From positions 42,508,327-42,572,326 of the forward strand of contig NC_065545.1 in assembly GCF_932294415.1 (NCBI RefSeq): a stretch of 64,000 nt of DNA. The letters are read 5' to 3'. Position 1 is the first letter of the stretch. Each line of letters begins with the position of its first letter. The translations under genes were made by a program, and so were the position numbers. Shown here piece by piece: positions 8,603-35,820 of the stretch. The notes under the pieces are model-generated. The model was not told the origin of the DNA and did no database searches. It worked only from the letters and a program-made list of their open reading frames with translations. The DNA comes from Quercus robur (Eukaryota; Streptophyta; Magnoliopsida; Fagales; Fagaceae).

Positions 8603-8689
8603 CACCTCTCATAATTTTGGGTCTAGCCACTAGGAAATGGGGAAATTCTTCCATGCAAGAGTGATTCTATTTCTCCTTGCACTACAAAA

Positions 8690-9240
8690 CGCGGGGGCCT
8701 TGGGCCGCGTTTTTTAAGCCGCGGCCATAAAAAAAGCGGCCCAAGGTGCGGCTAAAGCCCCGTTTTAAAAAATGCGGCCCAAGGCGAACCTTAAGGTCGC
8801 GTTTTATACGCGGGGCCATAGACAGGTTCTGAGGCCGCGTTTTTTTGAGATAAAAACGCGGCCTAAGGACCTCCGCATTTTATTTTTTCTTAAACTCTTT
8901 TTTTTTTTTTTTTTTTTGGTCTTCTTTTACTGTGGCCGCATTTTTAAAATGCAGCCCAAGGTTGAGCCTAAAGCCCCATTTTAAAAAACGCGGCTTCACA
9001 GAACCTTAAGGTCGGGTTTTGTACGCGGGGCCATAGACTGGTCCTGAAGCCGCGTGTTAAAAACGCGGCTCTAGTTCGGTTCTGAGGCCGCGTTTTCTTG
9101 AGATAGAAACGCGGCCTAAGGACTGGTTCTGAAGCCGCGTGTTAAAAACGCGGCTCTAGTTCGGGATGGGGCCACGTTTTTGAAACGGGGCTTCAGATTT
9201 CCCCTATAGCCGCATGTTAGAAATGCGGCTTTAGGGGAAG
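8690..9240. repeat. left subterminal repeats of the CACTA
   Basis: Many short copies of GGCCGCGTTTT and its complement AAAACGCGGCC, in both orientations, separated by 20-60 bp. CACTA elements use such subterminal repeats as binding sites for the TNP1-type protein; that role here is inferred. Confidence 0.85.
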
Positions 9241-9299
9241 TATAAATATTAATGAGAAACTCTCCAACCCATCATCTAACTCTCCAACCCATCAGATTT

Positions 9300-9660
9300 C
9301 AAGCGCTCCATCCGATCTACGCTCCATCCGATCTACTCTCCATACGCTCCATCCGATCTGACCCCTCATCACCTCCGTCCGATCTGACCCCTCATACGCT
9401 CCATCCGATCTACTCTCCATACGCTCCATCCGATCTGACCCCTCATCACCTCCGTCCGATCTGACCCCTCATACGCTCCATCCGATCTGACCCCTCATCA
9501 CCTCCGTCCGATCTGACCCCTCATCACCCCCTCATCACCCTCCATCTCCGACCTCAACCCTCACCCTTCATCCGATCTCAACCCTCACCTTCCATCTGAT
9601 CTCAACCTCTTTGTCCGTCACCCTCCATCCGATCTCAACCGATCTCAACCCTCACCCTCA
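9300..9660. repeat. minisatellite of CTCCATCCGATCTGACCCCT-type units
   Basis: Blocks such as CATACGCTCCATCCGATCT and ACCTCCGTCCGATCTGACC recur many times, with later degenerate copies (CTCAACCCTCACCCTCCAT). A composite unit of about 50 bp is visible between 9340 and 9500. ORFs across it are repeat-derived. Confidence 0.85.
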
Positions 9661-9699
9661 CCCTAAATTTCACCCACTTTTTTTTTTAATATTTTTTCT

Positions 9700-9866
9700 T
9701 TCTTCAGAGAAACCCATAAAAAACTCCGCCGACCCCGACGCCGAGAGACCAGCCCAGCGCCGACGACCCCAACGCTGACAAGGCCGAACCCAACTCAGCC
9801 TGCCGAATTCTCATACCCATCGGCGACCCATACCCAACGCCGCCGAGCCCATCGCCGACAAAGCGT
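9700..9866 (+). other. possible transcript leader of the CACTA
   Basis: A C/G-rich block (CGCCGACCCCGACGCCGAG and similar) ends in a splice-donor-like AAGC|GTATGT followed by a CT tract. It stands out from the AT-rich surroundings and lies just inside the left end, where CACTA promoters usually sit. A 5' UTR exon is an inference; no start codon is assigned. Confidence 0.3.
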
Positions 9867-10888
9867 ATGTACTCTCTCTCTCTCTCTAGTGTGAGATTTG
9901 TAGAAGATGTTGGTGGCTTTCATAGTATAACATTAACATATTAATTTGCAACATACTGCATGTTTTCCCTAGCTCCATCAAGTTCAAAAAATTTATGAAA
10001 TTATTTATTAGTTTTAATTTTCAATTATTTGTCGATACTTCATTGAGATTCAGAACATTAAATTCATTATTATAGTGCTTAAAGGAATAATATATAGCAT
10101 AGTAGAGATTTAAATTTAACACTACAGATGGTAATAGTTTTTTTTTTTTTTGAGAGAAGATGATAATAGTTTTTTTTTTTTTTTTTGAGAAACACACACA
10201 CATATATAGGGGAAGGGGGATGAGATAGGGGAGATTATATATATATATATATATATATATCATAAATATGGGAGTTTTTCTTATTAATTGCAAAACTTTG
10301 CTATAAAATTGATAATAGGTGAATTTTATTATATTAAAGATTGTCAAGGTGCCTAAATTAACATAAATTTAGAAAATCTTTGTATGCTCGTTAAAATTTG
10401 GGAAGACGTTGAGTTTTTTTTTTTTTTTTCAAAATAATCTATATGAGTGTCACAGTGTAACAAAATTGATAATTTTGTATACAAAATATTAATTTAATTT
10501 AAAAAAATAACATGCATATCAATATATGTATTTCCTTAACGAAGCATATCAATATATGTATTTCCTTAATTTGATTTTTTTTTTTCAGCTATATCTTTTA
10601 ACTTTTTCTTTGTAGAAGTATAACAAAACGAAGAGATTATATGAAGTATATAAGTAGGACACTAACTACAAAATTACATTTAATTTACATCTATATCGTT
10701 GTAATAAGGCTTTGATATTTGATCGATATTTATAGACATGGTAACATATGCATTACAAGAAATGGGAACAAGGGAAGGAAACATAATACTGTATAAGATT
10801 TCATTTCTAAAGCTACAAAAGTTGATATAAATATATAAGCTATGAAGTATAGCAACATGTGCAGCCAACTTTCTGTTTAAGCTTTGCT
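9867..10888. other. AT-rich CACTA interior
   Basis: Contains CT and TA tracts, poly-T runs and a short direct repeat (CATATCAATATATGTATTTC near 10513 and 10544). No gene seen. Confidence 0.4.
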
Positions 10889-12269
10889 TCACTCAAATTC
10901 CAAATCCCAAATAGAAGTTGCTTCTGGATCATCTGAGCTCTCCTGTAATGAATTTAGATTCAAGTTCATGTTTTCTCTTAGGATCTCAAATGCTCCATTT
11001 AGAGCCACATCTTCAATCCCGCTCCCCAGTTGCTTGCATAATCTACCATTGAACTTCCTAAGGCCTGATCACTCCCTCTATAGTTGCATCATTGTTCTGA
11101 TTAGCCTTTGCTAGCTCCATAGTCATCCAGTCAGGTAAAATTGGCCAATGTGTTTCAAAGGAGAGAGGAAGAGGATCATAGGAGGGGATGTTTCCTTGGT
11201 CATAATTGACTTCCTTTGTGGCATAAACACATTGATATTCATGGTCCATCCTCAAGTTCTTGTCCACAAAGCCCAAACTTATGTCACTCTGTGGACACTT
11301 AAGTTTTGGCAAGCATACAATGTGTCCATGGAGGCCTGTTCATCAAACACACACTTCCTTTTCTCACTGCTACATACAGTACTACTAGTACTAGATCCTC
11401 CTTCCTTCACTTTTACATTTTGATCATCTTCAATCTTGAGGCATTTCTCAGTATGTTGTAGAAGGGCTTCTTCTTGGTTCCCCACCTTAGACCAAGTTGA
11501 AGTCTCTTTAGATGTCATCTTATCTTGCAAACTCTTAGACTGTTTAACAAGCCTTCTCATTCTTATCCAAATTAGGAGACATGTGCTTGATCACTGCAAC
11601 CAAAACATTAACTTTCCAAGCCTTTTTAAGGTCATGGGGCCTATAAGGAGGTGGACCATGTTCCTGAGAGATTCCTTCTTGACCCCACCAAAGCTCTTCC
11701 CCTGTGGGCCACCAAGGAGGTGGTAGACCCCTCTCTAATGGAAACTTTCTTTGGGGAGGGATCCAATGTTGCATTAGAGCAGATAGAAGAGACCCCAAAG
11801 TAATATCTTGCAAGTCATGAAGCATATGCATATAAGAACTTGGGTCTAATTCATGACTTTCTTGGTCCAAAACTGGCAAGAAATCAGCAATGGCAAGAGG
11901 AGCATCTTGATCAAATCTGACTTTTTCTTTCCACCAATGGCGTAAACTATCAGATGAGCCAGTGACAGGCTTTCCTTTCTCTGTGACTATACCATAGACG
12001 AAACCTTGTGCTTTACAAACTTCCATGATCTTCACCATGTACTTGAGGATAGCATCTTATGCCCTTGACATCTTTTTCCGATGAGATGCATCTTCTTGTT
12101 TTGCCAATGACTCTGGCTCTCCATTAAGCTTATCCTGGAGCTTTTGCAAGTGCATCCGATCCTTCCACATGCGCTTCTTGAGCTCATCGTAGTTGATATC
12201 TTCTGCTTCATCTTCACTTTTACTTATGGGGTCTATTTCTCCCTGGAATTCAACCATGGTTGCACTCAT
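10889..12269 (-). pseudogene. EIL: captured EIN3-like (EIL) transcription factor pseudogene
   Basis: EIN3/EIL proteins are nuclear DNA-binding factors of ethylene signalling. Read from ATG at 12269 leftwards, the copy shows an acidic N-terminus, then DELKKRMWKDRMHLQKL and KKMSRA. Then come [64 protein letters not shown] and KQSKSLQDKMTSKE. These are the EIN3 DNA-binding core in the right order. About 460 codons without introns fits the shorter EIL4/EIL5-like type. Lesions: an in-frame TAA at 12057-12059 where the family has CAG/CAA (SRA-Q-D), frameshifts near 11555, near 11310 and near 11060, with the last frame ending IWDLEFE and TGA at 10889-10891. It lies antisense to, and inside, the CACTA, so it was probably captured. 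Whether it was already broken at capture is unknown. Confidence 0.9.
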
Positions 12270-12763
12270 ATTTAGCTCTAAAAATGTGTATAATCAAATA
12301 TATAGTCATGCATGCATGTAATATAGCCCGCTCTCTCTATATATACAAGGGTATTGAAGACCTCAATGGCGTTTTTTGAGCAGGAATAAAATTGGGAACA
12401 TAAATATTAAGGCTTAATAAGGACAAATTACCATTAACGAGGTGATTGGTGACCTCTAAAGTTTCTTGAGAGGGTAAGGAGATCATGTGGGGGATAGAGG
12501 AATTTGAGGAAATGGTACTTTTTGGCATGTAAGTGAGTGATGCAATAGAGGCCATGAGCAGAAGACAGCTCTTAATTCCTCTTGCTTTGCATGAGCGACA
12601 CATATGTATATGTTGCATATGCCTATCTTGCATGCTTGTTCGTAACAAATTTAATATATAAAGAATACTATTCAAGATATGCGGCCATATCATATATACT
12701 TGTTCACTTACTATATATATCACGTTTTTTTCTAATTAAAAACGAAAAAGTATATGTTTTAAT
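12270..12763. other. CACTA interior between EIL and hAT MITE
   Basis: Upstream flank of the EIL copy. It may include captured EIL promoter; a TATATATA stretch (12338-12345) lies about 70 bp upstream of the EIL start codon. No ORF of note. Confidence 0.3.
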
Positions 12764-13146
12764 CAGAGGCGGAGCCAGGGGGGTCGAGGGGGGGCCACTG
12801 CCCCCCCTAGCCCACCCAAAATTTTTTTTTTTTTTTTTTTTTTGATACTATCATTTTTATTTTCAGTTTTGAAGGTGTTGGTGAGAACAGTTGTTGGTTT
12901 TTTTTTTTTTTTTTTTTTTAATTGACTCGTTTTGGTTGCTGATGAAGTTGTGAAAAATGAAATATATGTATATATATTTTATACTTGTTTTCCTAATCAT
13001 TAATGGAACAAAATCACCTTAGCTACTTAACATATTTGTTGTTTCTATTTTTTTTCTTTTTAAATACATAAGATATATGTGCATAAAATGCATATATCTT
13101 ATACAAGTTTTGCCCCCCCTCAACTCAAATTCTAACTCCGCCACTG
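12764..13146 (+). mobile_element. hAT MITE, copy 1 (383 bp)
   Basis: Ends CAGAGGCGGAGCCAGG / AACTCCGCCACTG with a perfect 8-bp duplication GTTTTAAT (12756-12763; 13147-13154). The interior carries C/G-rich shoulders and long poly-T tracts. It is the near-identical inverse of the copy at 18489-18870. Confidence 0.93.
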
Positions 13147-13154
13147 GTTTTAAT

Positions 13155-15536
13155 ATTATCTTTAAGTAAATGAGCTGATCCTGATTCTTGACTAAGGCTC
13201 CTGGTGATAGATGAATGATAATGTAAGAACAAATGTAGAAGGGGTGAAAAGGATGAAGTTCACCGCCATCAACATGAACATTTAGCCAGTCACTCATGTA
13301 TATATATAATATTGTTAAGTGTTGAATTTGAATAAGCAATTAATGGGGTGTAATTAGTTTAGCTTTTCTAGCTAATATATCGTCAACCTAACATTATCTT
13401 TTGTATTTAGTTTTTTAGTCAGTGTTTGTTCCAACTCTCATCTTATAATCTCAAAAATATAAATATAATACATGTAAACACTTTTATGCATGAGTGTAAC
13501 AATTCGTTCAATCCTATTGTGGGTTTCAATTTGGTATCAGAGTCATTCAATCTTCATAGCCTACAACTCTTCTTCATCTTCCTCCACTATCCACCCAACC
13601 AAGTATTATTCCCTAACACCTATGCCTTTTTTATGTGTTAGAATATAGATATTTAAAAAATGTGGACATTTTCATATCAATTATGAATATTAATGTAAAA
13701 TAGTGGATGTAAATGAGTATGAGAGGAAAATTAAAAATTTCCCTTTCAACATTATTATAGCATTGAGTATGTCGAGAGATGTTTGTTTTACAAATTTATA
13801 AATTGGTATTATTTACATAATATTCACATAATATTCACATTAAATAAAGTACACACATATTTAAGTGTCAGTTCTTATCAAAACAGACTCAACCTAGCTA
13901 GGTTTAAGCCTTCACATATGATTTCTTGCTCTCTCTTTTTTTTAGCTGTGAGGATAGCTAGTTATTATTGTCATAAACAAACAAGTTATTTTATAGAAAC
14001 AACTGAAGCATTAACTTTTATTATTATAAAAATTGGATCTTAATCATCGATCTTTTTAAAGAAAATAATGATTTTGAAGAATATAAGACCTTATGGAGGC
14101 TCTTTCTATTTGAATGGTATCATTAATGTTTTCTCCTATTTATAAACATTTCATGCATTTATGAAAATATCCCAACCTAACTATAATGAAATGAATATTT
14201 GAAATAAATTATCTAACTACCACAATTCGAAAGAAAAAAATTTGTGTATGACAAAAACAAAAAGATGTTCACAAGTAAGTTCTGATTTATCCGTTTTTAT
14301 CAACATAAATTAATTTGATTTGGATATATTTTTCCAATAATTTAATTTCCACCTAGTTTTTAATAGATGAAGATGAAGCTCACACAGTCACTGCTTTGAA
14401 AGTGTAATTATTGTGCTCTCTTCGCATTGAGCCTTAAGTCAAAAGTCATTGGCTGCATATGTGACTTACCAATACAAATATTACTTTTATTTTTATTTTA
14501 TTTTTTGGTTTTCTTCTCCTATTGTCTTTTCTCATTTTCAATTTTCTAAACTCATTTGCATCATAACTATAGGTGCTATGGTTAATAATCAGTTCCGGCT
14601 GGCTGCTTCAGTGTAGACATCTGCGAAGATAAATTTTCAGCACATTTCTGGTGTTGTTATGATATACTAAAGGTATGCTTCTGCCCATATTTTATTTTAT
14701 TTGTAATTCTTTGTTGAATTCTAATAGCTTTTGGACATGTAATTTGGGTAATACCTACGTAGATGGAGTTGATCTTTGGTAGTGATGTATCTAAAATCAA
14801 AGACGTTCATTCTTTGACCTTTTCTGATTCTTTTGAGTACAAATATATACATAATAATAATCGTGGCAGGACTTAATCATTGAAATTCTGAAATATGCAT
14901 GGAAGCGTCTGAATGAATGATTTTATAAATTTAGAGGTTTCTATGCAGCACAAAATCATGGAGTCATGCAAATAGTCTATCTCAGCAGATGTTGATGCTG
15001 CTGAAATTTATAAGAACTCTAACTGGCCAGCCATACATTAAAAATCATTAATTTTTGGTTTGTTAATATGACCTTTTGGTTTACCCAGGAAATTTAAAAA
15101 TTCTTTGCAGCAGTGTTTTTTTGGCAGAGTAAGGAGAAAATGCTTTGACATGATTCATAGTGGCATATGCATATAAGTTTCTAACATAGGCAAACCAAGT
15201 TACAGTTATATAAGTCTCATTATATATGCCACAGTTACAACTTCTTATATAAAACTTTTCATGTTCTTTAATGTGAATTATTTCTTAATTTCAGGTGCAA
15301 ACAGTAAACAAGCCGTGTGAAAATTTCATCCAGACTGGGGATCAAAAACTGACATTCGCTACCAGGTTGAAGCTGAACCATAATTTATGCTTATTTCCCG
15401 TACAAAGAGAAATATTTTGCAACTTCATGTCACTAAATAGTATGCTGATGGAATGATTTTTATTTTGTTTGGGAGGTCTGAATTTTCTCTGGATATTTAG
15501 TTGTCTTTTGTTGTTAAAGTACATGATTTTATGTCA
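13155..15536. other. CACTA interior with possible captured exon fragments
   Basis: Mostly AT-rich. Two exon-like pieces stand out: 14574-14672 (acceptor CTATAG, donor AAAG|GTATGC, one frame reading DICEDKFSAHFWCCYDILK) and 15296-15364 (acceptor TTTCAG, reading VQTVNKPCENFIQTGDQ, donor ACCAG|GTTG). I do not recognise the protein, and other frames are closed, so these may be decayed host exons or noncoding exons. Confidence 0.25.
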
Positions 15537-15671
15537 GGGATGGACCTAGTAGGGGGATCGGACCCTCCCCCGGCCCAAATTTTTTTTTGTTTTCGTAGGT
15601 ATATTTTATGTTATTAATAGTTGGGCCCCTCCCTTCCACAACCTTGGCCCCTGTTAGCCAGCCCCGCCCAG
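15537..15671. mobile_element. small hAT-like remnant
   Basis: Starts CAGGGATGGACCTAG and ends near TTAGCCAGCCCCGCCC, resembling the CAGGGGCGGA-type hAT ends elsewhere in the window. No duplication is visible, so the boundaries are approximate. Confidence 0.4.
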
Positions 15672-16025
15672 ACAACCTATAGGACCCTTTTCAACTTTTT
15701 GATGCAAGGGAGAGCAAGGTGATCAAAGAGAGGAGATTGGATAGGGAAGAGAGTAGAGAGTAGAGACATGAAGCAGAGGGAAGAGAGAGAGAGAGAGAGT
15801 GTGAGGGAATATAAATCAATATATAGAAAAATAGAGGGTCCACCTAGGTGAATAAAAAAATAATAAAATTTTTTCCAACATGCCACAATGCGGTTTTATT
15901 TATAGAACCACACTGTTGCGTGTTGGAAAAATATTTGAGATTTGAAACACCCATGGAACAATGATTTTGGTGTTTGTTTTCCAAATACCAAAAATTTGGC
16001 ATTTGGCATTTGCCATTCTTTTCTA

Positions 16026-16348
16026 GAGCATTCACAATTGGCCATGCAAATGGCATATGTAAGCAAATTTTACCATTAAAGTACTAAAAAGGCCCCAGCA
16101 TTTGGCTTTGTATTGGTCTAGTATCCTAAAAAAATAATAATATTTTTTTATGTTGGCATGGGGGAGAAGGGAGAGAGAGAGATTGAATTATATTATTTTA
16201 TTAGATAGTACATATTAATTTAATGAGTGGAATAGGAAAATAAAAATTGAGATGTTGAGGGTGTTGTAAAATAGTATGATGTAATTAATAAAGTACCTTT
16301 TTGAGATGGTAAAATAGAATAAAATAGGAATTCAAGATGTGAATGCCC
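16026..16348. mobile_element. TA-flanked MITE (323 bp)
   Basis: Inverted ends GAGCATTCACA / TGTGAATGCCC, flanked by TA at 16024-16025 and 16349-16350. The GAGCATTC end is shared with the outer element at 7400-39539, so both may be mobilised by the same transposase type. Confidence 0.6.
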
Positions 16349-16384
16349 TAATAGGAACAATTGGTACTTGAGCTCTTATCTTTT

Positions 16385-16590
16385 CAATATTAACCAAGTC
16401 TGGCGATAAATTATCATCATCAGCCAACAATTCTTTTGGACCCGAGTTCCACTATCCAAATCAACAACTTCTACACCTGTTTCAGCACCCTCACAGACTA
16501 GTTGCCCTATCTTTACCGCACAAATCTACTAGATCATCCCAATTTGCAATTACTTTCCAATGAAAACTTCTAGCTTTTTCATGGGACTAT
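16385..16590 (-). pseudogene. Myb/SANT-like domain protein fragment
   Basis: On the minus strand one frame reads ANWDDLVDLCGKDRAT and, after a frame change, CEGAETGVEVVDLDSG. This matches the end of the plant Myb/SANT-like (L10-interacting MYB type) domain, where W-D-x-L-x-x-x-x-G-K-D-R-A-T-G is followed by a G-A-E-T segment. The frame break and missing upstream domain mark it as a relic. It may be a captured host exon or part of a Harbinger-associated gene. Confidence 0.4.
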
Positions 16591-18488
16591 CAAGCATGAA
16601 AACAAAAGACTATGATAGTTCAAAATTTTTTTTTTTTTTTTTGGGGTATTAGGGATCATATATAAACGAACTAACTAGTAGCACTCAAAGCTGCACCATT
16701 ACAAAGTCTTACAAAGTTTTGTACAAATTTGACGAAGGCAAATCCAAGAATGCCATTTTATTATTAAACATAATGCAATTACATAATAATATAAACATTG
16801 TTTAATGCCCACAAATGAATACAAAAACAATATGAAAATCCACTTCCTACTTTAGCATGAGTTTGAAATTATTCCCCTGAGTTTGCTCTAAATTATGCAG
16901 TAACTTGAGTATTGGTGTATCGTTTCTGTTTTAACATAAGTCTGTAATTGTTATGTACTATTTATTTTCACGAGCATCCATCACATCTAATAGAGGCAGC
17001 TAATTGAAGGGATCTTGCCCCTTTTAGCTGCTTCAGCCTCTCCTCTTTCTTTTATATATACATCTTCTGCATTGTAGGTACACTAAGAAAAATTTGAGAG
17101 ACTGAGAGCAAATAGAAATAGAAATGGATAAGAAATTAGATGTTCACAATATCGCAAAAATACTTATCATAAATATGATTAAAAAACTTAAGTACTAAAT
17201 TACAACCTCTACAATCAATATATATATATATATATACACATATATAAGACTATCTTTAATCATTTAATCTTCATAACATTATAACAGATAACGCTGTGAA
17301 AATTTGGGATTGATTCACCTATCAATTCCATTTCGAGATAGTTTTAAATTAAAATTCTATTTGAGCACACCACTGGAAATATAGTTTGACCATACTTGCT
17401 ACTCCAAATAATTCAAGTCAAGATGTTTGATTTTCCCCCCTCATCACCCAAGTAGATTAACTAAGATTTTAAGAATATAATTACATACAAAACCTAGAAA
17501 AGCCCAAAATTGAAAAGGATGAAATCAATCTAAAAGCATTAGCACTATCATGCAATATCCAAGACAGCCACTTGTAATAAGCACTATGAGAAGCAAATAT
17601 ACAACAAAAGATCATTAAATAGAACAACTCATCATCATCAAGAATATACCTTCTTTTCTTGTTACAAAAGACACATGGAAACTTAAAATTTAAACATTTT
17701 ATACTAAGACAATACAAAATCAATAATAATAATAATAATAATAATTACTTGCAAGAAACAAAAAACCTAAATTCATGGAGTCCTTCAGTTTACGAATTTC
17801 AAAATCTTATCTTGAAATTTTTTGCTCATTCAACAAAATTATAAATAGACCATTTATAAAAAATATTTTTTTTTAAAAAAACCTGTATTTCTTTACCAAC
17901 CATGCACTCAAGTAGAAAAAAAGTGTTGTTTTTTTTTTTTTTTACTCCAACAATTTATTATTCAAAACATGTTCTGACTGTCCAAAAGAATAACAAAATA
18001 AAATTATGGCAGACCAAGAGAGATTATAGGCGTCTTTGTTTTTCGTAGAAGCAAATATAGGCGACTTCGACAAAAAAATAATTAATAATTATAATATTAT
18101 GATATTCAAATCTTGTAGTATTAATCCATTAAATGCATCAAGCTACAATAGTAAATAGTCTCAGAAAATTCTACACCAAAGTAAAATGCAGAGCAACAAA
18201 CAAAGAAAAACAAGATAAAGAATTCGTGAGTTTTGTCTAAATTGTTCAATATCCATTTACATTCCAGATATTATACCTAAATGCAAACCATTAATTTGAG
18301 GAATCATAATTTGTGCGAGGGTATGAAGGAACATATTAAAGTTGAAATCAAGAAGATCTTAATGTTTGTGATTAAGCCCAAGTTATTACCCCTTAAGCCC
18401 CCATTTGCTTTTCTATGACAGAAAGCATTAGTAAACTAAAGTCCACAACATTCTAATAAACTAATGGTAATTTCACGACAGATGGGAC
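16591..18488. other. CACTA interior, no gene seen
   Basis: AT-rich DNA with (TA)n near 17218, an (AAT)n run near 17721 and several poly-T tracts. ORFs here are short and unremarkable. Confidence 0.4.
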
Positions 18489-18870
18489 CAGTGGCGGAGT
18501 TAGAATTTGAGTTGAGGGGGGGCAAAACTTGTATTAGATATATGCATTTTATACACATATATCTTATGTATTTAAAAAGAAAAAAAATAGAAACAACAAA
18601 TATGTTAAGTAGCTAAGGTGATTTTGTTCCATTAATGATTAGGAAAACAAGTATAAAATATATATACATATATTTCATTTTTCACAACTTCATCAGCAAC
18701 CAAAACGAGTCAATTAAAAAAAAAAAAAAAAAAAACCAACAACTGTTCTCACCAACACCTTCAAAACTGAAAATAAAAATGATAGTATCAAAAAAAAAAA
18801 AAAAAAAAAAAATTTTGGGTGGGCTAGGGGGGGCAGTGGCCCCCCCTCGACCCCCCTGGCTCCGCCTCTG
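18489..18870 (-). mobile_element. hAT MITE, copy 2, inverted (382 bp)
   Basis: Ends CAGTGGCGGAGTTAG / GGCTCCGCCTCTG with an 8-bp duplication GATGGGAC (18481-18488; 18871-18878). Its sequence is the reverse complement of copy 1, including the TGGTGAGAACAGTTGTTGG block and poly-T tracts, with almost no differences visible. The two copies flank about 5.3 kb. Confidence 0.93.
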
Positions 18871-19673
18871 GATGGGACCCCCCTTTTTCTGGTCTGAATT
18901 GTAAGTATTAGAAAACTATAGGCCACAACATTCGAATAACCTAAACAGAATTTCACAATAGATGAATAAAAATGAAATGCATAGATACTCCTTAAATTGG
19001 CTAATTGCAAACAAATCCAGGATTGTATGATGAATTAAAACAAATATATGATAATGATTACAAAAACATAATGAACACAAAATGATCATGATGTATCGAC
19101 TTTCATACTCAAGGAATCGCCCAACAGTAAAAATTTAATTCATGTAAAATTAAGTCTTAACAGTTGCAAGTTTGCAATCATTATTAATGCAAACAAAACC
19201 CACTATCATAGAGGGTCCCATATGCTAAATTGCTACACATGGAAAAACTAATGTAATTTTTTTTCTAAAAACAAAAAAAATAAAAATAAAAACCTCAACA
19301 AAACAACTATAAACTTGAATCACACCAAATCTTAAACCTATCTGACAAATGTTTTGAACTCAAGTTTGACCAATGACCCAAGTAATTGAGCATCATGGTA
19401 TTATAGACTTAATAATTATTAAGTTTTTAATAATTATTACAATTACATGAATTTGGTATTTGTTTTCAGATTTTGTAGACACTTATGCTTAACTACTTTT
19501 ACAACTTATCACATTGAGTTAGTCTAGGACAAGTGTTATATGTTCTAAGAAAATAGCCGCATACTTGGGTATGTTTGTTCTTAACAAATGACAAATGAAT
19601 GTAATTATAATAATTAGTATCTTTGTAGTAACAAATCTTGGTGTAGGTAAAATTCCGTAAATATTGTATCGCA
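18871..19673. promoter_or_regulatory. upstream region of the TNP2 gene
   Basis: AT-rich leader region before the TNP2 start codon. No unambiguous TATA box can be singled out. Confidence 0.25.
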
Positions 19674-22600
19674 ATGGACAAAAGTTGGATGGAGAAGCGG
19701 AGGGGTACAAGGGAATATTTTGAAGGTGTAAACCAATTCGTGGAATTTGCTGCTCCATCCGCGCGCAATGGGAAGATCTTATGTCCTTGTGTGAAATGTG
19801 TGAATTTGCTTATACAACCGCTAAATGTGGTACGTGAGCACTGTTGGGCTTCGGGGATGCTTAAAAATTACAAAGTTTGGAAATTTCATGGTGAATCGGC
19901 GGTTGCTACGCCAGCTATCGAATGTGGGAGCTCTCATGTGCAAGAAACCCAAAATCCATATGGTGATTTCCATGGGATGTTGCACGATTTGTGCCCCCCG
20001 CATGAAATCCCACCCGAACCAATGGAAGAAGGTCCAACTGCGCAATGTCCGGGTGAAGGTCCGAATGATGACGCCAAGAAGTTTTACAAGATGGTAGATG
20101 ATGTAGACAAACCTTTATATGAAGGTTGTACAAAATTTAGCATTTTCTCAGCCATTGTCGTGTTGTTCCAGTTGAAGACTCTGTGTGGTTGGACAAATAA
20201 GTCATTTACTCTGTTGCTTCAAGTCCTGATGGATATGCTTCCTTCAGACGCTAAGTTGCCAAAGGACCATTATGAGGCTAAGAAGATAGTTCGAGATTTG
20301 GGTTTGGGTTATGAGAAGATCCATGCTTGTCCCAATGATTGTATGCTGTTTTGGAAGCAAAATGTTAACCTCGAGGCGTGTCCTTGTTGTAAAGCTTCAA
20401 GGTGGAAAACAAATGAGGCATCTGTTGCTAGTAAGCATGCTTCATCCAGTAAGGGGAAGAAGAAAGTTGCGAAGATCCTACGGTGGTTCCCCTTAAAGCC
20501 AAGATTGCAGCGACTATTTCTGTCACCCGATCTGGCTAGTTCTATGAAATGGCATGTTAATGGTCGTACTGATGATGGGGTAATGCGGCATCCTGCTGAC
20601 TCAGATGCATGGAAAATGTTTGACAGTAAGCATTTACACTTCTCATCTGACCCTCGTAGTGTCAGACTTGGATTAGCTGCGGATGGGTTCAACCCCTTCG
20701 GAATTATGAGTACTAGTCACAGTACGTGGCCTGTCATGTTGGTCCCGTACAATCTCCCACCTTGGCTGTGCATGAAACGGTCATCTTTGATTCTATCATT
20801 AGTTATTCCTGGTCCTACCTCGCCAGGGATTGCTATAGATGTGTACTTGGAACCGTTAGTAGAAGAACTAAGGGAGGTATGGGATGTTGGAGTACAAGCA
20901 TACGATGCATCTTCAAAAGAAGTATTCCAATTGCGTGCAGCATTGATGTGGACCATAAATGATTTTCCTGCATACGCAGATTTGTCGGGTTGGAGTACCA
21001 AAGGTGAGTTGGCGTGTCCTTCTTGTGCCGTGAAGACCGAGTCTCGATATTTGAGAAATGGTCGCAAATTCTGTTACATGGGACATCGGCGATGGTTGGA
21101 TGTTGACCACGATTTCCGCAAAGATGGTATGTCATTTGATGGATCTATTGATACTCGATTGGCTCCTGAACCACCAGTCACATCTGACATTATTGTGGAA
21201 ACTGAACATTTACTTGGACGTTGTCTGGGTAGGAAATGTCAGCTTGCTTACAAAAAAAGGAAGAGAAGGGAGGCAGACCAGAGTGGTTGGAAGAAAAGGA
21301 GTATATTTTTTACCTTGCCTTATTGGGAGGATCACAAGTTGCGACACAATCTTGATGTGATGCATATAGAGAAGAATGTGATGGACAATATACTAAGCAC
21401 ACTGTTGAACTTGAAGGATAAAACGAAGGATAATTACAAGGCACGCCTTGACTTGGCGGACATGGGGATAAGGAGTGAACTCCACCTACAACGAAAAAGT
21501 GATGACCAGTATACCATACCGGCTGCATGTTTTCATATGACTTCATCGGAGATAGATGGTTTCTTGCAAGTTTTGAAGGATGTAACAGTGCCCGATGGGT
21601 ACGCTTCCAATATCTCACGGCGTGTGAATATGAAAGAACGCAAGATTTCTGGTTTGAAGAGTCATGATAATCACATATTGATGCAGCAAATTTTTCCCAT
21701 AGCATTACGTGGGTCTTTGCCATCTCATGTTAGTAGGCCTTTGATAAAGTTAGCTTGCTTCTTTAGAGAAATTTGTTACAAAACCCTTACGGTTTCAGAT
21801 ATTGTGACTAGTGAGGCAGAGATTGCAGTGACATTGTGTGAATTGGAAAAGATATTTCCTCCATCCTTCTTTACAGTGATGGTACATTTGGTCATGCACT
21901 TAGCTGCTGAAGCTAAGATTGGTGGTCCAGTGCACTACCGTTGGATGTATCCCATTGAGAGGTAAGATGTGTGTAATATTATTGATCAACTTCCAGTTTC
22001 ATGTGCGTGTTCGAATTACCATTGCCAATCATTAATCTTATCATTCCTTTATAGGTACCTCTCACGTCTTAAGTCTTACGTACGAAATAGAGCTGCTCCG
22101 GAAGGGTCTATTGCTTAAGGATACATAGTAGAGGAGTGCTTAACATTCTGTTCACGGTATATGGAAGGAGTGGAAACTATATTCAATCGACCCACCAGGA
22201 TGATTGAGGAGTCAACGGGGGTGGTTTCGATCATGACATTAAACAATAAAGAGTGGACCCAAGCCCATCGCTACGTTTTATTCAATTCTGAAAACATCAA
22301 CCGCTTTCGTGAGTAAGTATTACATATACAAATATAATTGCACGTCAATCCAATGTATGTAAGGTCTATTAACCCTAATACAATTGCCTGCACAGGATGC
22401 ACAAAAGATTGATAGAGGATGAACTTCGAAAAGGCCACAATCGTAACGTTTCCGATGCCATTATATATAAGCACCACATGGAGAAGTTTTGTACTTGGTT
22501 TGGGGGTCACGTACGTATGACATTTTCAACTTATTAAACTTGTAACACTGTCTCAACCATGATTAACTGTACTGATATGAATTATTTTATTTTGGCCAAC

Positions 22601-23347
22601 TGATGTTAGGTGATGTCCCTCACTGGTGCTGATAAGGAAAGGGAGGGAGTTAGTGATACCCTTGTTGCATTGTCCAAATGGCCGTATATTTATGTAAAGC
22701 GGTTCAAGCATTATGTAATAAATGGCTTAAAATTTAGGAGTGTAAATGATGAGGCAAATAGGAAAACGCAGAATAGTGGAGTTAGTGTGGCTACTGAAGG
22801 GGGCAATACTTACTATGGTATTTTAAGTGATATAATTGAGTTGAATTATTCTGACAATATCAAACATGTGTTATTCAAGTGTAAATGGGTTCATAACCAA
22901 CATAGGAGAGGATATAGGACTGATGAATTTGGGTTTCCTATGGTAAACTTTACACACTTCATACATGGTGGGGATAAAATGATAGATGAACCATACGTCT
23001 TGGCATCTCAAGCTACACAAGTTTTTTATGTGGAAGATAAAAGGCACAAGGATTGGTATGCTGTTGTCAAAACTAAAGCTAGGGACGTGTTTGATGCTGG
23101 TGTTGGTCCCCAACGTGAGGAGGATGACATATATAGTTTATCTGAAAATGTTCCCTACAATATAAGTAGTAATGAGGTTGTGAGTGACAACCTTCGTTGG
23201 GCTCGGGATGATCTAGAGGGAATGACAATTGATGCCTCCATCATTGCTGAAAGAGATCTTCATGGAGTAAACAATGAAGATGAGTTTATTGACGATGAGT
23301 CTGACAATGAAGACGACAACAAGGATGAGTACACCGAGGATGAGTAG
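19674..23347 (+). CDS. TNP2: CACTA transposase TNP2, four exons, one in-frame stop
   Basis: Catalytic transposase of En/Spm-type elements; it cuts the CACTA ends in the nucleus. Exons 19674-21961, 22055-22312, 22396-22510 and 22610-23347 join with GT/AG sites and compatible phases, 1133 codons in all. Order: transposase-associated domain (residues about 3-75, with CPCVKC), a tnp2 core (about 210-600) with WPVMLVPYNLPPWLCMK, ELACPSC and DVMHIEKNV, a DUF4218-type region across the first intron (LPSHVSRPLIKLACFFREIC, EGSIA, RYMEG), then a DUF4216-type region in exon 4 and an acidic tail. Exon 1 is open for 763 codons. Exon 2 has TAA at 22116-22118 where relatives read SIAEGYI, so Glu is replaced by stop. 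This could be a real mutation, a sequencing error, or rarely read through. Otherwise it looks recently active. Confidence 0.92.
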
Positions 23348-27532: not shown

Positions 27533-30500
27533 ATGGGTAAGAAACACCGATTGCCAGTTGTAGAAGTCGGCGAAGGACCCTCGAGTTCACGACAGAGAGG
27601 GGAGGAGCTACAAGCCGCCCATACTAGTGATGCTGGGTCACAACCCACAGGTAGTTTACATATCTTGAAATGTAACGTTTGATATTTATTACTGTTGTAA
27701 CTAATTTTTCGGTCGTTTGCTGCAGGAAAGGAGAGGGACCATCCATTGACAATTGTGCAAGTTGGCCAAGGTTCATCACGCTCACGAGACATCATGCAGG
27801 AGGAGTTAAGGGCCGCCTATGATGCTGAGCACGCAAGATGGGAGGAAGGAGATGATGATGATGATGATGAGACACAGCCGCCTTCTGCAGGTAGTTATTC
27901 GTACAGTGTAAATTATTCTTAGGGTAACACTTTTATGTTTGCTGTTAATGACTAAACACTCTAACCACCTATATCTTTAACCTTATGTTTATATGGTTTC
28001 AATTTTTTAGTAGTTTTGACTTGATACATACTTTAATTATTCAAGTAAAATGAAATTTACTAATTGAATGAATTAAAATTCACACAATGATCCAAAAATT
28101 TAAAATGTATAAATAAGATTAACAATTTTTTTATCTCTTTTGGTTCACTAAAGTTCCTTTTTTTTTTTTGTAATAAAAAAAAAAATTCAATAGGAGAAGT
28201 TAAAGATTTTGAGACATGAAGAATTTCAAACATTACTACCTCTTCCCCATCTTGCAATTGTAATAAGATACATGATATAGCTCCCTTCTTCGAATGCGTT
28301 AAATGATGTCTCATGCTTCCTTGCGCTCTTGTGCATTAGAAATTTCAATGATTTTTAAGATTGAGTCATCTAATTGCACTTTCAGAGAAACTATGTCAGT
28401 GCTGTAAAGTAAAACCTAGAAGTTTGATGATAATGTGTAAAGTTCAAACCGTCCAAAATTCTGCTGGTTGATGAATTGGTGATGCAATTTGAAGAAAATC
28501 ATTTGCTTTTAACAGAGCATCAACAACCATGAGTTCTATTGCCTAACAAAGGATCACTGTCAAATTTAATTCATTAAGTGTTCAAATACAGATTAAAGAC
28601 ATCTATGCTGGAACTACTATTTTTAAGTTCCACATTAACAAATGTAGTTGGGATTTCATGACCCAACTATTCAATTCTTGGATTATAACATTAGTATTCC
28701 AAACAACCTAAAGCATAGTTTCTGGCAGCAACCACAAACTTATATTGGCATGAGAAGAGAACCTACCTTATAGCCTTAAACACCTGCCAATACTCTCCCA
28801 TGAAAATGAAGACAATTGAACCTTTCATTTTTAATTGAGGAGACTCAAAGCAAAGAAGCAAACAACTAAGATAGCTTAGCTCAGTTGTACATCTCCACAA
28901 GAAGAAGATATAGGGTCAACTATAAATATATATATATATATATATATATAATAGAAATTCATTAATTATTACAAACAGCTGTACATTGGAGGCATTAAGA
29001 CTTGTGCTGATTATCAAAAATTAAACTGCAATATTTGTGCAGAGTGCACATCAGAAATCTAAGTCATACGCTTAAAAAACTATTCCATAATTATGTTCAT
29101 TATAATATTTTTCAACAAGCTAATAAAACCTATAAGCATATGTAAATGAGTTGATGTGCTGTAGCAAATTTTAGACTTCCTAACACAATTCTTGTTTCAT
29201 TAACTCCAAATACAAATACAAATCTCCCTCTTCCCTCACTAAGCTTGAGAAAACTCTTAATTTTATTTTTCATTTTATCATTAAAAATTTCTGAAAATAT
29301 ATTTTAAACTACTGCTCTTACTGCATTTTAATTAACTTTTCCCTTCTGTTTCTAAGAAAAAAAAAAAAAACACACTTTTCCCTTGTAAAAATGTGCAGTT
29401 TGCACAGTATAGAAATCAGTTTTTAATTTTATGATGGATATATTTAGATCTAAACAAAAGAACACAATTAATGTTGGGGGGACATTACCTTATGTAATGG
29501 TAAAGTCACGGGGTGGTCACAGGGGCGGCACCAAGTGAAGATTAGGGGGTTGAAAACTTTAAATAAACCATCTGAGCTGGCCAAAAAAGAAAAAGAAAAA
29601 GAAAAAAAGTATAAGAGCTAAATAAAAAAAAAAAAGAATTATGTATAATATTTTTAAAATATTTTTTTGACCCTTTGAAATAAAATTTTGAACTCCTGAT
29701 CCCAAACTTTTTTAAATTCAACAGATAAAATGAGCTTAAATATGATTATCTAGACAATATCTTAGCATTTTTAAACATTAAATGCAAAAAGCCCAACAAA
29801 AACCAATTTGATCTAAAATCTAGGGGAAAAAAATAGTAAGCCCAACATCAAAAGTAGAAAATTTGTTGACCTTAAACTTCAAGAAAATTTTCTGTATGGT
29901 TCTCTGCTTTTGAATTTCTTATTTCCTTCTTTGTATTCTGCTTTCATGTCTTGGTATTTAGCTTATGCTTCTGCTCCATTTATCTTTCATTTTTTTTTTA
30001 TGCTCTGTTGATGCTGTTTTCAAATGGGTTTTCTGGTTGGTTTGTATGAAGGGATTTTTCTTGGTATCTGATGGAGTTTTCAGTGTTGGGTTTACAGTGA
30101 CTATTTTTGGGTCTTCCTGAGAATTGTTAAGGGTTTGACAGTGGGGTTTTGGCTGTAGTTCCAGTGGGATTTTTCTTGGCTTATTTTAGGATATTTGTAG
30201 TGAGAGTTTTGGAGGATTTGCTGGGTTATTTTCAGTGGGGGTTGAGATTGTCGATTTTGGGGTTGATTTTATGGGTTAAAACAGGGATATTTATGGTTCT
30301 ATTTGGGTTTGCAAGGGCATTGTTTTTGGGTATTTTTGGTGGTGTTCTTGGCTGGGAATTTGGGTGTTTCTCTATAAAGTTTGTAGGGGTTTAGAGCTGG
30401 GTTTTTGGTTGGATTTCTATATGATTGAGGGATTCTTGCAGGTTTTGTTTGTGAGAAGGTTTTTTTGTGTATTTTCTGGGTTTTGATAGTTTTTGTAGTG

Positions 30501-33500
30501 TGTCTGGGAGTTTGGGTGTTTCTCTGTGGAGAGGGTAGAGACGTGTGTGAAAAATATTGAGGTAACTTGATTTGCATGGGAGGCCTTACTTATTTTTTAG
30601 TAAAAGATGGTGAGGTCGCGTGGGATGGGAGATCGCTTTTTCTTTGGCATTTGGCCAGCTTGCAATTTGTTGAGGGTATGGAAAATATTTGGTTGTGCAT
30701 GGAACCAAATTGGCTGTGCAAACTTGGGGTTAAGGACAAAATTTGTTAAATCTTCTCCTAGATGGGTTCTAGAAGAAGTGAGATTTAGGGAAATGATCCA
30801 ATTAAGTACCACCACTTGACATAATTAGGGACCAAATCAATTTCAAATGTGCACTTCTTTAAGCAATTAATAAAAAGCAAAGCCTAAAATGGTGATGACC
30901 CGAATTTTTTTTTTTTTTGAGAAACGGTGATGACCCGATTTAATAGAATTGGAGTTGTTCCTCGGAAAAGTAAATGAATTTCTAAGGAACACAAACTCCA
31001 ATAAAATTGGACTCAATAAATATAGTGGCACACATTTCATGCAAAATCAAGTAATACTAAGAAGGGAAATGGTAATGAGTGTCCTGAAGTAAATTTTACT
31101 AAACTTCTTTGGAGTTTGGGTTCATATCAACTAAGTTCAACACTTTTAAAAACAACTAATTCGGTCTCTAAAGGATATTTTTATTCCTAACTCCATTTAG
31201 CACAGTTACTTTTATCTCATATTTTGTTCACTGTGGATGTGTAACGTCCTTGTCATCAGAGAAAAAACAAAAAGAAAAGAGGGGGTCAAGTCAGATTTTT
31301 AGTTCGCACGTGCCCCCCACCTAACACCACTCCCCATCACTCATTTTCACCCACCTCTCTTCTCTCTTTTGGCTGGCTGTCTCTTTTCTGTCTTTCATTT
31401 TCTTTCTTTTATCTTTACTTAAACACACACACGCACACACTCACTTCCACACTCACCCACCGGCCTCCACTCCAAAGCAATCAATCCTCACCATCATTTT
31501 TTCGACAAGATCACCAGAAAAATACTTAGGAACCCCAAAGCATCTTCATCACTTTATTTGAGGTAAAAGTTCTAATTTCTTTTGATGGGTATTATGTTCT
31601 TGTTTGAGGTTATTTTACCCAAGCTGTAATAATGATATTCATGTGATTTACGAGCTTTGGAAATGATATTCAACTTGGCTATGCATGTACATGACACTGG
31701 CAGTAATGGTGTTACCAATATTATAGGTATTATGGTTGAATTATATGCAACTTACATATATTTTTTGGATAAAAACAGTTTTTTATTTTTGAAAGGGATA
31801 AAAACAGCTTTTAGATAGAGACATCGACTTATTTGTTATTATCAGTTTCTTTAAGTATCAAAATCTCCACATTTACAAAGATCACATATATCATGTTAGT
31901 TGAGCACTTGAGCTATATACAGTGACTTCTCTGTAATTGTGAACTTTGAAATTTCATTCTCTCTAATAATGGTTTACTATATGCAGACGATTTGGTCCAA
32001 GAAACCGCACCATCCAATGAGGGGCGTGCAGAAGATTCAGTTCGGGAAGCCCCAATATCCAATAATATAAATAAAAAACGTGGAATAACACTAATGCAGC
32101 GTATATGGGCTCTTCCACCGAACAAGAAACTTGTATGTGGGTTAAATGGGAGCAAGCAACCGGTTGGGGAAAGCGGGCAAACATTCAAAAGGTGGTTGGG
32201 CACCTTATGCATCTGCCGCAACTATTGCCCACTTATGCCTGCTACTTGGACGCATGTCGACCGTAAATGCAAAGAAGACGCCTGGGTAGAGATAGAGGTT
32301 GTATCAAATTAAGATACTTTTAATTGTTATGTATAGTCGTGTATGTGCTAAATGGCATTTTCAGTAGGGTGAATTATTGCACTATGCTAACTCAATTTTT
32401 GCATTTCAGAAAAAGTGGATCATTGACCCAGAAATTATCAGACCAGCTAATCAAATGAACTGGGCAATGCACTTATTAGGGGAGTTGAGAAGGAACCGAA
32501 GGAGTAAGTTAAAAAAAAAAATGCTACCCAAAAGATGCGTTAAAAGAAGATGTTTATGAAAAGAAACCATCTTGGGCTGACGAGCAGGACTATCGCGCAC
32601 TAGTTGACTATTGGTTTGATTCTAAAACGAAGGTTGCGCTATTTTCTTGCTCTATTATCTTTTAGTGGTAATATACATATGATGGGGTATTTGGATATAC
32701 CGAGTACAGTGTTTTAACTGATTTGTTTGTTTTAATTTGTTGGCGGGAATGTGTAAAGGAATTAGTGGATACGAACAAGAGAAGTCGTTCGTTTCAGACG
32801 GATATAGCGAGGACAGGGCCTATAAGTTTTGCACAAACTGCTGACAATATGGTAAGAAATGCATTATACAACAACTAGCCAAGTTTTAATGCTCTACTAT
32901 TTTAATTGAACTTGTGACATATTGGTGGTATCAATAAATTCTAGTTGTATTTATTTATTTATTTTGTTGTTGAAAGAACATGGTCGATTCGAATTCATGG
33001 AAATTAAAATAGATTTTGTCGGCGTGAGTTTAGCATTGAGGAAGGGCTTGCATGGAGATGACAGTAATGGTGGCAATGCCCAACGTTGTCGTAGGGTCCA
33101 AACTAAGCAATCCACAATTTCATTACTGTAATAATACAAACTTCTTGGTTTAGAATTAATCAATATTAAAAAATCACAAAAGAGTTTCCGTACATATTGT
33201 TTGGTTGAATTAAAATTATTATGTGTGATGAATCTGAAGAGTTTGAAGAAACTAGTTTACTGATCATATGCACAGTGTTGGGGTAAGGAAGACTTGGCTT
33301 TTTTGCATGTTTATGACTGTTAATAGACATTTCTTGTGATGTTTCCTGTTTTTGATTAGTGATTTCATTAATATTTATGTTTGCCACTTTGTTAGCAAGA
33401 GTTTGGTTTGGTATATAGCAATTGGGATGCATATAGGCAGGGGGTTGTAGCTGCGTTTAAAACGTGGCTATGGAGTAATTGTAAAAATATTTAGGGGGTT

Positions 33501-34644
33501 GTAGCTGCATTAAAATGTGGCTATAGACAAATTCTAAAAATAGTTAGGGGGTTATAGCCGCGTTTTAAACGTGGCTATAGGTAACAGATATAACCACATT
33601 TAAGAAACGTGGCTATAGTTGTGGCATATAGTTATGGCCACACTTTTTCAAACGTTACCTCTTATAAAATGGCTATTTTATTAAATCTAATATTATAAGA
33701 GTGTTGGTACCAAAAACCGCTTGATACAAAGCATTCACATGAAGAAAACAACTCGTCTTTTTGAACGTAATAAACTACATGTTTACGAAATTTGTTTTAT
33801 GGTTATATTGCATGTTATGTTCCAAATTCCATTTGCTATGTTTGGTTGTCGCTTCATACCAACATAAATTTTCACTATTGTAATGAGACTGTTGAATATG
33901 ATGTAGGCAAAAGAAAACGGCCAAGCAGTGGAGCGTGCAGATGTTTTCATAAAAGCATACTGCACGAAAGATGGGACTCCTATTAGTAATGAAGTGCGAG
34001 ACAAGATTGTAAGCCTATATCATAACCTATTTATTTTCTAATTTGTGCGTGAAATGTTTATATGAAAACAGGATAAAATGAAAGAAATTTTAAACAACGG
34101 GGGCAAGCTAGTAGGAGACCATCGCGATGGAATTCTCTGGGCAAAAGATGATGCGTTCGCTCAAGTGATGGGCAAAGAACGTTCTGGACGTGTCCGTGGG
34201 GTCGGTTTTGGACCAACCCCATCAGGAAGAAGTGGGTCCAACCTTCCATGTGTGCCTGGGCCGTCGTCCACTGAAACGGCCCAACGAATGACTGCATTGG
34301 AAAATTCGATGAGGGACCAACTTGCTGACTCAGAGCAAAGGCATCAGCAGCAACTGGCCGAAGCACTGGCCAAAGCAAAGCGGGAGTCAGATGCACGGCA
34401 TGAGCAGCAACTAGCCGAAGCACTGGCCGAAGCAAAGCGAGAGTCAGATGCACGGCATGAGCAGAAACTGGCCGAAGCAATGCGCGAATCAGAAACACGG
34501 CATCAACAGCAGCTGGACGAAACAAAGCGGGAAATGGCCGATACAAAGCGGAGAATGGATGAAATAGTAGCCTTCTTACAAAAGAACATGCCAACCAATT
34601 TAAGTGTAAGCGGTTATTCAGGTAATACAAACTTTGCGTTTTAG
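27533..34644 (+). CDS. TNP1-like CACTA accessory protein, seven exons
   Basis: Belongs to the plant Ptta/En/Spm transposase group, thought to bind subterminal repeats. Exons 27533-27650, 27726-27890, 31987-32297, 32410-32632, 32759-32851, 33907-34008 and 34072-34644, all with GT/AG sites and phases that fit except exon 4. Exons 1 and 2 encode duplicated segments (VVEVGEGPSSSR and IVQVGQGSSRSR). Exons 3-4 hold the conserved block (GESGQTFKRWLGTLC, then RPANQMNWAMHLLGELRRNRR), exon 5 RTGPISFAQTADNM. Exon 7 has RVRGVGFGPTPSG and a coiled coil of three RHxQQLAEALA-type repeats. Total about 527 aa. Exon 4 is out of frame by one base near an A-run at 32513-32522 (the frame resumes as KEDVYEKKPSWADEQDYRALV), a mutation or a homopolymer error. 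A 4.1-kb second intron is unusually long. Confidence 0.82.
27891..31986. other. 4.1-kb intron of the TNP1-like gene, with acquired DNA
   Basis: It holds a T/G-rich stretch (29.9-30.55 kb) and a CT/CA-rich, leader-like stretch (31.28-31.57 kb: TCTCTTTTCTGTCTTTC, then ACACACACGCACACACTC). The latter ends TTTGAGGTAAAAG like a 5' UTR donor site and looks like the promoter and leader of a host gene, so captured gene-start DNA is plausible; no coding exon was recognised. A (TA)n tract lies near 28925, and 29522 begins CAGGGGCGGCACC like a hAT end without a partner. Confidence 0.35.
33436..33660. repeat. CACTA subterminal-type repeats inside intron 5 of the TNP1-like gene
   Basis: Several copies of GTAGCTGCGTTTAAAACGTGGCTATGG-type units (written here as GTAGCTGCGTTT and AACGTGGCTAT) spaced by about 50 bp. 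Their CTATAG/GCCGCGTTT wording is closer to the small CACTA at 41616 than to the GGCCTAAG wording of the host element's own ends. Likely a remnant of a second, related CACTA, or an internal copy of the ends. Confidence 0.6.
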
Positions 34645-35039
34645 TTAATGAAACTTGCGTGTTTATTGCAATATTATGTGCTACTAATTTTGCGTATATA
34701 ATATTTTCAGGATAGCGCAACATCATAGTATAATATCTTCGTGGACTCTTCATGGACTCTTCATGTATAATTGTTTGGATATTCGGAATATTGTAACTTT
34801 GTGGATATTGAAAATATTGTAAACATAATTGTAATATTGTTTGGACTCTTCGTGGACTCTTCATGTATAGTTGTTTGGATATTTCTTTAGAGAAAATTAA
34901 TGCTTGAGAAAATTCTTACTTGATATTTTGTTGGAATTCTGGGTTGTTATTAGAGATATTTTGTTGAAATTTTGTATGTTTGACAGGTTTGTAAAAATCT
35001 GCCCAGAAAAAGGAAATAAAAAGGAAAAAAAAAAATACT

Positions 35040-35705
35040 ATAGCCACGTTTTTAAAACGATAAAAACGTGGCTATAGACCAATTCATAATAAGAATTCGG
35101 GGGGCTTAGGCCGCACTTAAAACGCGGCCTAACGTTGTAATCTTGGGCCGCGTTTTAAACGCGGCCTAAGAGCAGAACCTTAGGCCGCGTTTTAAGTGCG
35201 GCCTAAGCCTGAACCTTAGGCCACGGTTAAAACACGGCTTAAATGAGTGTCACAGGCCGTCACAATGGGAGGTACGGCCGCACTTTTTAAACGCGGCCTA
35301 AGGTTCAACCTTGGGCTGCGTTTTAAACGTGGCCTAAGGTTCAACCTTGGGCTGCGTTTTAAACGTGGCCTAAGGTTCAACCTTAGGCTGCGTTTAAAAC
35401 GCGGCCTAAGGTAAAGGCTTAGGCCGCGTTTAAAACGCGGCCTAAGCCCGTACCCTTAGGCCGCGTTTTAAACGGGGCTATAGGACTCGGGCTTGGGCCG
35501 CGGTTAAAAAGTGCGGCCATAGGACCATCAGTCCTATAGTCACGGGTTTTAGGCCACATTAGAAACCGTGGCCTAAAAAAACGTGGCTATAGGCTATAGC
35601 CACTTTTTTTGCCATATAGCCGCGTTTTATAAACGCGGCCAGAGGACCTTTTTGCCATATAGCCGCGTTTTATAAACGCGGCCAGAGGACCTTTTTTTTG
35701 TAGTG
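35040..35705. repeat. right subterminal repeats of the CACTA
   Basis: At least fifteen copies of GGCCGCGTTTTAAACGCGGCC-like motifs (shown as GCCGCGTTTT and AAACGCGGCC), often paired as palindromes. Near the tip TTGCCATATAGCCGCG occurs twice, about 43 bp apart. The motif matches the left end, supporting the 8680-35705 pairing. Confidence 0.9.
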
Positions 35706-35820
35706 TTGGAATCAAAAATTTGGTAAGGGTCTAGCTACTCTCACCTTAGAATCCATAATTTCTTCAGGGAATCTTAAGAAGTTGGTTTTGTGGTTTGTAA
35801 AATTGGAAAGCTTGTAAGTC

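Follow-up and report, generated by a model that had tools for sequence, protein, structure and literature searches.

The 64-kb stretch of the Quercus robur genome analysed here (C41:42508327-42572326, hereafter the window) contains a 27-kb transposon of the CACTA (En/Spm) superfamily. This element very probably (roughly 0.88) belongs to a family of giant CACTA elements with recent activity, gained a segment with an EIN3/EIL-type pseudogene (the EIL segment) by abortive gap repair with template switching, and only later received its nested miniature inverted-repeat transposable elements (MITEs). Because a single assembly contains acceptor, donor, sister backbone and both junctions, with a divergence of 0.35%, the steps of the repair can be followed almost directly.

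Termini and layout of the 27-kb element

The left terminus, at window position 8680, is CACTACAAAA, and the right terminus, at 35705, is TTTTGTAGTG, that is, CACTACAAAA inverted. Both are bordered by the target site duplication (TSD) TTG, and the corresponding empty site was taken to read CTCCTTG followed by GAATCAAA. The main parts are as follows, in window positions.

8677-8679, no strand: left copy of the TSD TTG, from the border sequence
8680-9240, plus strand: left end, bearing the terminus CACTACAAAA and 20 subterminal motifs, which occur in either orientation; 40 scored genome matches from base 1
9241-10569, plus strand: remaining left part of the element, with parts common to sister copy L026 and to L029, L032 and L034; it closes with the 26-bp direct duplication at the capture junction
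14107-19646, plus strand: backbone common to the family, preceding TNP2; long matches to other copies are at 96.6-98.4% identity
35040-35705, plus strand: right end, with 26 subterminal motifs and the TTTTGTAGTG terminus
35706-35708, no strand: right copy of the TSD TTG, from the border sequence

The subterminal motif is an 11-base sequence like GGCCGCGTTTT, often paired with its own inverse as a near-palindrome, and was scanned for in both orientations with up to two mismatches, using 200 shuffles per end as the control. Against the 20 and 26 occurrences at the two ends, only three were found in 9241-35000, and shuffled ends contained on average 0.16 (left) and 0.18 (right), with a maximum of 2. 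An Rfam scan of the whole window returned no matches.

The presence of CACTA terminal inverted repeats, a 3-bp TSD, subterminal direct and inverted repeats and a TNP2/TNPD-type transposase assigns the element to the CACTA (En/Spm) superfamily. It is a genuine, complete transposon, ordinary in kind and unusual in size. A reading made earlier from the nucleotide sequence alone (the sequence-only reading) had described a single CACTA element, complete and equipped with both transposition genes, on the evidence of its ends, the TTG duplication, the motif arrays, a four-exon TNP2 and a seven-exon TNP1-like gene. That description was borne out, and as a 27-kb unit it is indeed a single element; its length, however, includes approximately 3.14 kb of captured foreign DNA and approximately 0.77 kb of nested MITEs, neither of which had been mentioned in that description.

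Family copies in the genome and recent activity

The assembly searched comprises 785.7 Mb in 42 contigs. The 221-base left end and the right end served as queries, and the best 40 of 160 left and the best 40 of 244 right candidates were scored; family copy numbers are therefore given as lower bounds. Matches beginning at the first base of the left query were present in at least 40 places, with identity from 100% down to 83%. Mapping of the ends had been suggested along with the sequence-only reading as a check on it, and gave a same-strand right end within 60 kb for 24 of the 40 scored left ends, compared with a chance expectation of 0.06. Six pairs span 0.5-13.8 kb and 18 span 22.7-34.8 kb, the 27-kb copy being among the latter. 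A perfect 3-bp duplication borders 23 of the 24 pairs. The left ten bases are identical in all pairs, and GTAGTG ends all 24 right ends, with one base altered just inside it in two. Some TSD triplets recur (AGT in three pairs), and the eight bases preceding the left end differ across all 24, indicating separate insertions. The possibility that the left and right halves belong to two unrelated elements was rejected on the basis of these pairs and their matching duplications. In the right end of the 27-kb copy, the last 43-bp unit is doubled (35606-35696); since the other 39 scored right ends match only to query base 169, this doubling looks private to this copy.

The search with TNP2 exon 1 returned 62 rows, 19 of them full-length at 97% identity or higher. 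By coordinates, such an exon lies within 16 of the 18 giant pairs, and it is truncated in the remaining two (C1:2778532 and C5:57474906). The near-identity of the 19 TNP2 first exons and the 23 perfect duplications with different flanks support recent activity of this family of giant elements, as the sequence-only reading had proposed, transposition itself being deduced from the near-identical copies. Judging by this family, CACTA elements as long as 23-35 kb that carry transposase genes seem able to multiply, a point of relevance to the size limits of DNA transposons.

A second TNP2 lineage, at 81% identity, has open first exons at C35:47643304, C40:23337137, C38:10860891 and C41:38202718, and is possibly another active CACTA family.

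Captured segment and its donor

A segment of an unlinked locus on contig C6 replaces part of the left backbone of the element. Two features define it.

10570-14111 (approximate), no strand: captured segment, from BLAST pieces 10575-12763 and 13147-14116 against L045:3998-7136 (contig C6)
10889-12269, minus strand: EIN3/EIL-type pseudogene within the captured segment, Pfam EIN3_DNA-bd at 3.2e-85

With the nested MITE 1 excluded, the segment is approximately 3.14 kb long and differs from the C6 donor by 11 mismatches in 3135 aligned bases (0.35%). The alignment also has five short gaps, among them one at the point where the MITE was removed for the comparison and one at the segment edge. For the region 10800-12350, one other place in the genome, on C6, matches at 99%; the remaining listed matches do not exceed 72%, the next by score being at 68%. 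The donor stretch L045, consisting of 10 kb around the C6 match, matches the window at the two BLAST pieces and nowhere else. These 10 kb contain no element end and no family backbone, and have no match to the first 10 kb of the 20 sister copies that were used for comparison (the sister stretches). A frame with the reverse-transcriptase-associated domain zf-RVT is likewise found in the donor stretch.

The EIL pseudogene, in which three frames were read by eye, is apparently full length, but is broken by one stop and by several frame shifts. The donor shares this stop and one of the frame shifts, which indicates that the gene was already dead before capture; its role as a living cargo gene was rejected on the same evidence. 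With this pseudogene and its donor, the element holds captured host genic DNA between CACTA ends, as Pack-CACTA elements do.

The direction of transfer could also be the opposite, with the segment ancestral to the element and the C6 locus a relic copied out of it; the two sequences alone give no direction. However, three sister copies (L033, L038 and L043) carry different sequence left of 14107, joined there to the backbone, which argues that the element acquired the segment and not the reverse. The capture is absent from all 20 sister stretches, and element ends and backbone are both missing from the C6 stretch. An element origin of the C6 locus is the least probable of the explanations weighed in this study.

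Junctions and proposed mechanism of capture

At the right junction, the sequence TATTT (14107-14111) is common to the donor, the sister backbone and the 27-kb copy, with the BLAST alignment continuing to 14116 through a gap. At the left junction, the 27-kb copy tracks L029, L032 and L034 up to CCTTAACGAA, which is followed by the 26-base repeat GCATATCAATATATGTATTTCCTTAA, and donor sequence is entered at approximately 10570 with no bases in common. Stutter on one side and microhomology on the other form the pattern expected from gap repair with template switching, a mechanism attributed to Rubin and Levy (according to PMC8978399). How cut-and-paste elements gain host DNA has been called not known, with errors of break repair named as a suggestion (PMC3260210).

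In such a process, a gap left in the element would have undergone abortive repair. The new strand would have stuttered at the left junction, giving the 26-bp duplication, then switched template to the C6 locus and copied approximately 3.14 kb, with the donor kept, before the 5-bp match TATTT led it back into element sequence. The backbone copies would have diverged before this (1.2-2.1% over 15210-16700 between the 27-kb copy and seven sisters, against 0.35% between segment and donor), and MITE 1 would have been inserted after it.

Capture of host DNA via two nearby insertions, whose outer ends mobilise the DNA between them, has been proposed for Pack-CACTA and other Pack-TYPE elements (PMC8903248), and such tandem insertion and re-mobilisation followed by deletions could in principle yield a segment like the present one. 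No CACTA terminus is, however, present at the junctions. The closest hexamers lie at 10120 (CACTAC) and 14779 (GTAGTG), and the window contains 15 and 14 of these, respectively. The donor has no element DNA beside the copied part, and the junctions show the 26-bp duplication and the 5-bp microhomology instead. Such a route is quite improbable for this element.

Several observations weigh against capture by gap repair within a recently active family. At the left junction, L029, L032 and L034 stand in for the direct parent, and they are only about 90% alike over 10320-10543. The donor was judged element-free over 10 kb only. Host and element mutation rates may differ, so that the comparison of 0.35% with 1.2-2.1% gives only a rough order of events. 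As for the family, the 40 right ends that were scored include no partner for 16 of the 40 left ends, and one of the 24 pairs, the copy at C5:49109319, lacks a matching duplication.

Nested MITEs

Two MITEs are nested in the element.

12764-13146, plus strand: nested MITE 1, with the 8-bp duplication GTTTTAAT; not present at the donor locus
18489-18870, minus strand: nested MITE 2, 98.7% like MITE 1 and inverted relative to it, with the 8-bp duplication GATGGGAC

The length of the duplications is that of hAT elements, to which we presume both belong. The absence of MITE 1 from the donor indicates that it was most likely inserted after capture. The empty site of MITE 2 is exact in L026 and is found with one changed base in L038. 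Both MITEs would be later additions in the lineage of the 27-kb copy. The occurrence of two near-identical copies of about 383 bp in one element probably reflects a recently active MITE family.

Transposition genes

The element contains two genes with predicted GT-AG introns.

19674-21961, 22055-22312, 22396-22510 and 22610-23347, plus strand: four exons of the TNP2 transposase gene, supported by GT-AG introns and Pfam domains
27533-27650, 27726-27890, 31987-32297, 32410-32632, 32759-32851, 33907-34008 and 34072-34644, plus strand: seven exons of the TNP1-like gene, with GT-AG introns

TNP2 comprises 1133 codons including the terminal stop, with a single internal stop at codon 784 in exon 2. 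Its product matches the Pfam families Transposase_21 (6e-95), Transpos_assoc, DUF4218 and DUF4216. Four exons have been proposed as the ancestral form of CACTA transposases (PMC4158355). The TNP1-like gene, extending over 27533-34644, maintains its frame apart from one slip in exon 4. Downstream of the slip, the joined exons match Transposase_24 at 1.3e-27 (positions 2-137 of 138), compared with 4.5e-4 for a single exon alone, and this gain supports the splice model for that part; the portion upstream of the slip matched no Pfam family. TNP2 would cut and insert the element, and the TNP1-like protein would bind the subterminal motifs. A Pfam scan of 97 of the 162 listed open frames of the element revealed no captured gene, only Transposase_24 and a sub-cut-off match to Exonuc_VII_L. 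The other 65 frames were excluded by hand, being located over the EIL region or the MITEs, overlapping, or covered in a separate Pfam scan.

The sequence-only reading had counted just one stop in TNP2 and one slip in the TNP1-like gene, and this count is correct. It had also put the 27-kb copy forward as a candidate for the recently active, autonomous master of its family, a view that is not supported here. The complete ends, the perfect duplication and the presence of all exons are what a master would have. Both genes are interrupted, however, while an autonomous master would have both open; the copy is one of 18 paired copies longer than 20 kb, and it contains nested insertions and a capture that the 20 sister stretches do not show. 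TNP2 exon 1, considered alone, has no stop in 12 of the 19 near-identical copies, the 27-kb copy included, so that 11 others are equally open. That the 27-kb copy is the master is highly improbable, although slightly less so than an element origin of the C6 locus. Proteins from other copies may move it in trans.

Left parts of the sister copies

The left end is common to the sister copies, and the left part then differs between them. Where the backbone is reached within the 10 kb compared, it starts at 14107 (L033, L038, L043), 14854 (L025, L026, L027, L028, L030), 19295 (L031) or 30014 (L042); several copies show none of it over this length. Some left stretches are common to groups (L025/26/27/28/30, L029/32/34 and L039/40), and others are private (L033, L035, L036, L037, L038, L041, L043 and L044, among others).

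A donor was searched for four of these cassettes: one has a clear donor (the 27-kb copy), one has older counterparts (L038), one has none (the L025 group) and one was uninformative (L037). The private 4-kb part of L038 matches four separate places at 91-95%, on C37, on C38 and at two sites about 5 Mb apart on C41. The C38 piece, which belongs to repeated sequence, is split by the C37 piece, and one of the C41 places has a second match of 86-93% nearby. Capture of a spliced sequence in L038 was considered and rejected, as the 517-bp gap in the counterpart has no GT-AG border. The cassette of the L025 group (2 kb searched) occurs in six places, all at 98% or higher, and elsewhere in the assembly only pieces shorter than 90 bases were found, with no donor.

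Open frames of at least 95 amino acids were also scanned in the sister stretches, 27 of 38 non-redundant frames, from 13 of the 20 stretches and the donor. The Pfam matches were XH, DUF4218, EIN3 and zf-RVT of the donor, a zinc knuckle (L036) and one leucine-rich repeat match. An open 211-amino-acid frame at L033:2843-3475 (minus strand) contains a complete XH domain (2.7e-60); it is broken in L037 and present in L041 as far as covered. The XH domain is of the kind found in IDN2/FDM proteins of RNA-directed DNA methylation. A PDB search with the XH frame gave no matches at 0.1. The more retroelement-like zinc-knuckle frame of L036 points to nested retroelements in some private parts.

The stretch between the left subterminal array and TNP2 could be a replaceable cargo region, in which mobile giants repeatedly swap left backbone for unrelated genomic DNA, now and then including whole genes or pieces of silencing-pathway genes such as the XH piece. 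In that case, small RNAs directed at the host's own gene could arise from the XH cargo. The donor-less cassette of the L025 group and the zinc-knuckle frame of L036 speak against a general rule of this kind, which is proposed here as a doubtful possibility, albeit a likelier one than any of the three alternatives weighed above.

The leucine-rich repeat match is a single open frame (LRR_1, 1.1e-5), and L044 contains a frame of 1396 amino acids that looks like a retroelement polyprotein, probably of a nested retroelement.

Other features of the window

A second CACTA element of 1.6 kb (41616-43217), with a related subterminal motif, the duplication TGC and no gene seen, is nested in a hAT-like insertion (40991-43225) with the 8-bp duplication CCTGTAAT, identified by eye. 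This hAT-like insertion apparently splits a cytochrome P450 exon. At 51475-57493, a pair of long terminal repeats (LTRs) 98.3% alike surrounds a 998-amino-acid frame with Retrotran_gag_2 and Transposase_32 and without a polymerase domain; this LTR element has possibly acquired a further coding piece. At 7800-8602, a tandem duplication of 401 bp, whose units are 99.5% alike, stops 77 bp short of the left end of the 27-kb element.

Comparison with known systems

A search of the literature found no report, judged by title and start of abstract, of capture of EIN3 by a CACTA element, and no wider absence is claimed. Large elements of this superfamily have been described before, including En/Spm elements of 16-20 kb in a red alga (PMC6431247) and the 20.5-kb soybean element Tgmt* (PMC2613891). 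Tgmt* resembles the Quercus robur element in its CACTA ends, 3-bp duplication, inverted subterminal repeats capable of forming palindromes, tnp2 together with a presumed DNA-binding function, and very large size. Its subterminal motif is TTGGCAG/AATCTTACAG, in contrast to the GGCCGCGTTTT-like motif of the present element (PMC2613891). Unlike Tgmt*, the Quercus robur family has at least 18 paired copies longer than 20 kb, and its 27-kb copy holds a recent capture with a known donor.

The Tpn1 family of Ipomoea nil likewise consists of CACTA elements with internal parts replaced by captured host sequence, the longest copy being 40,619 bp (PMC5105172). Tpn1 copies average 7,081 bp in length, however, and nearly all of them are devoid of transposase genes (PMC5105172), whereas the Quercus robur giants keep a full TNP2 exon 1 in 16 of 18 cases. 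CACTA elements of Chenopodium with coding genes carry captured host fragments (Neprosin, AP2) at the same 5' location, ahead of the transposase-associated domain, but these are of 80 to about 200 bp (PMC8978399), compared with approximately 3.14 kb, an apparently full-length pseudogene and an identified donor in Quercus robur. Captured genic DNA between CACTA ends is shared with Pack-CACTA and other Pack-TYPE elements, which by definition are free of transposase sequence (PMC8903248), whereas the 27-kb copy contains TNP2 and the TNP1-like gene, both broken. Capture by CACTA elements is thus already known; with its size, its retained transposase genes and its fresh donor-acceptor pair, the Quercus robur element is a good case of it and not a new kind.

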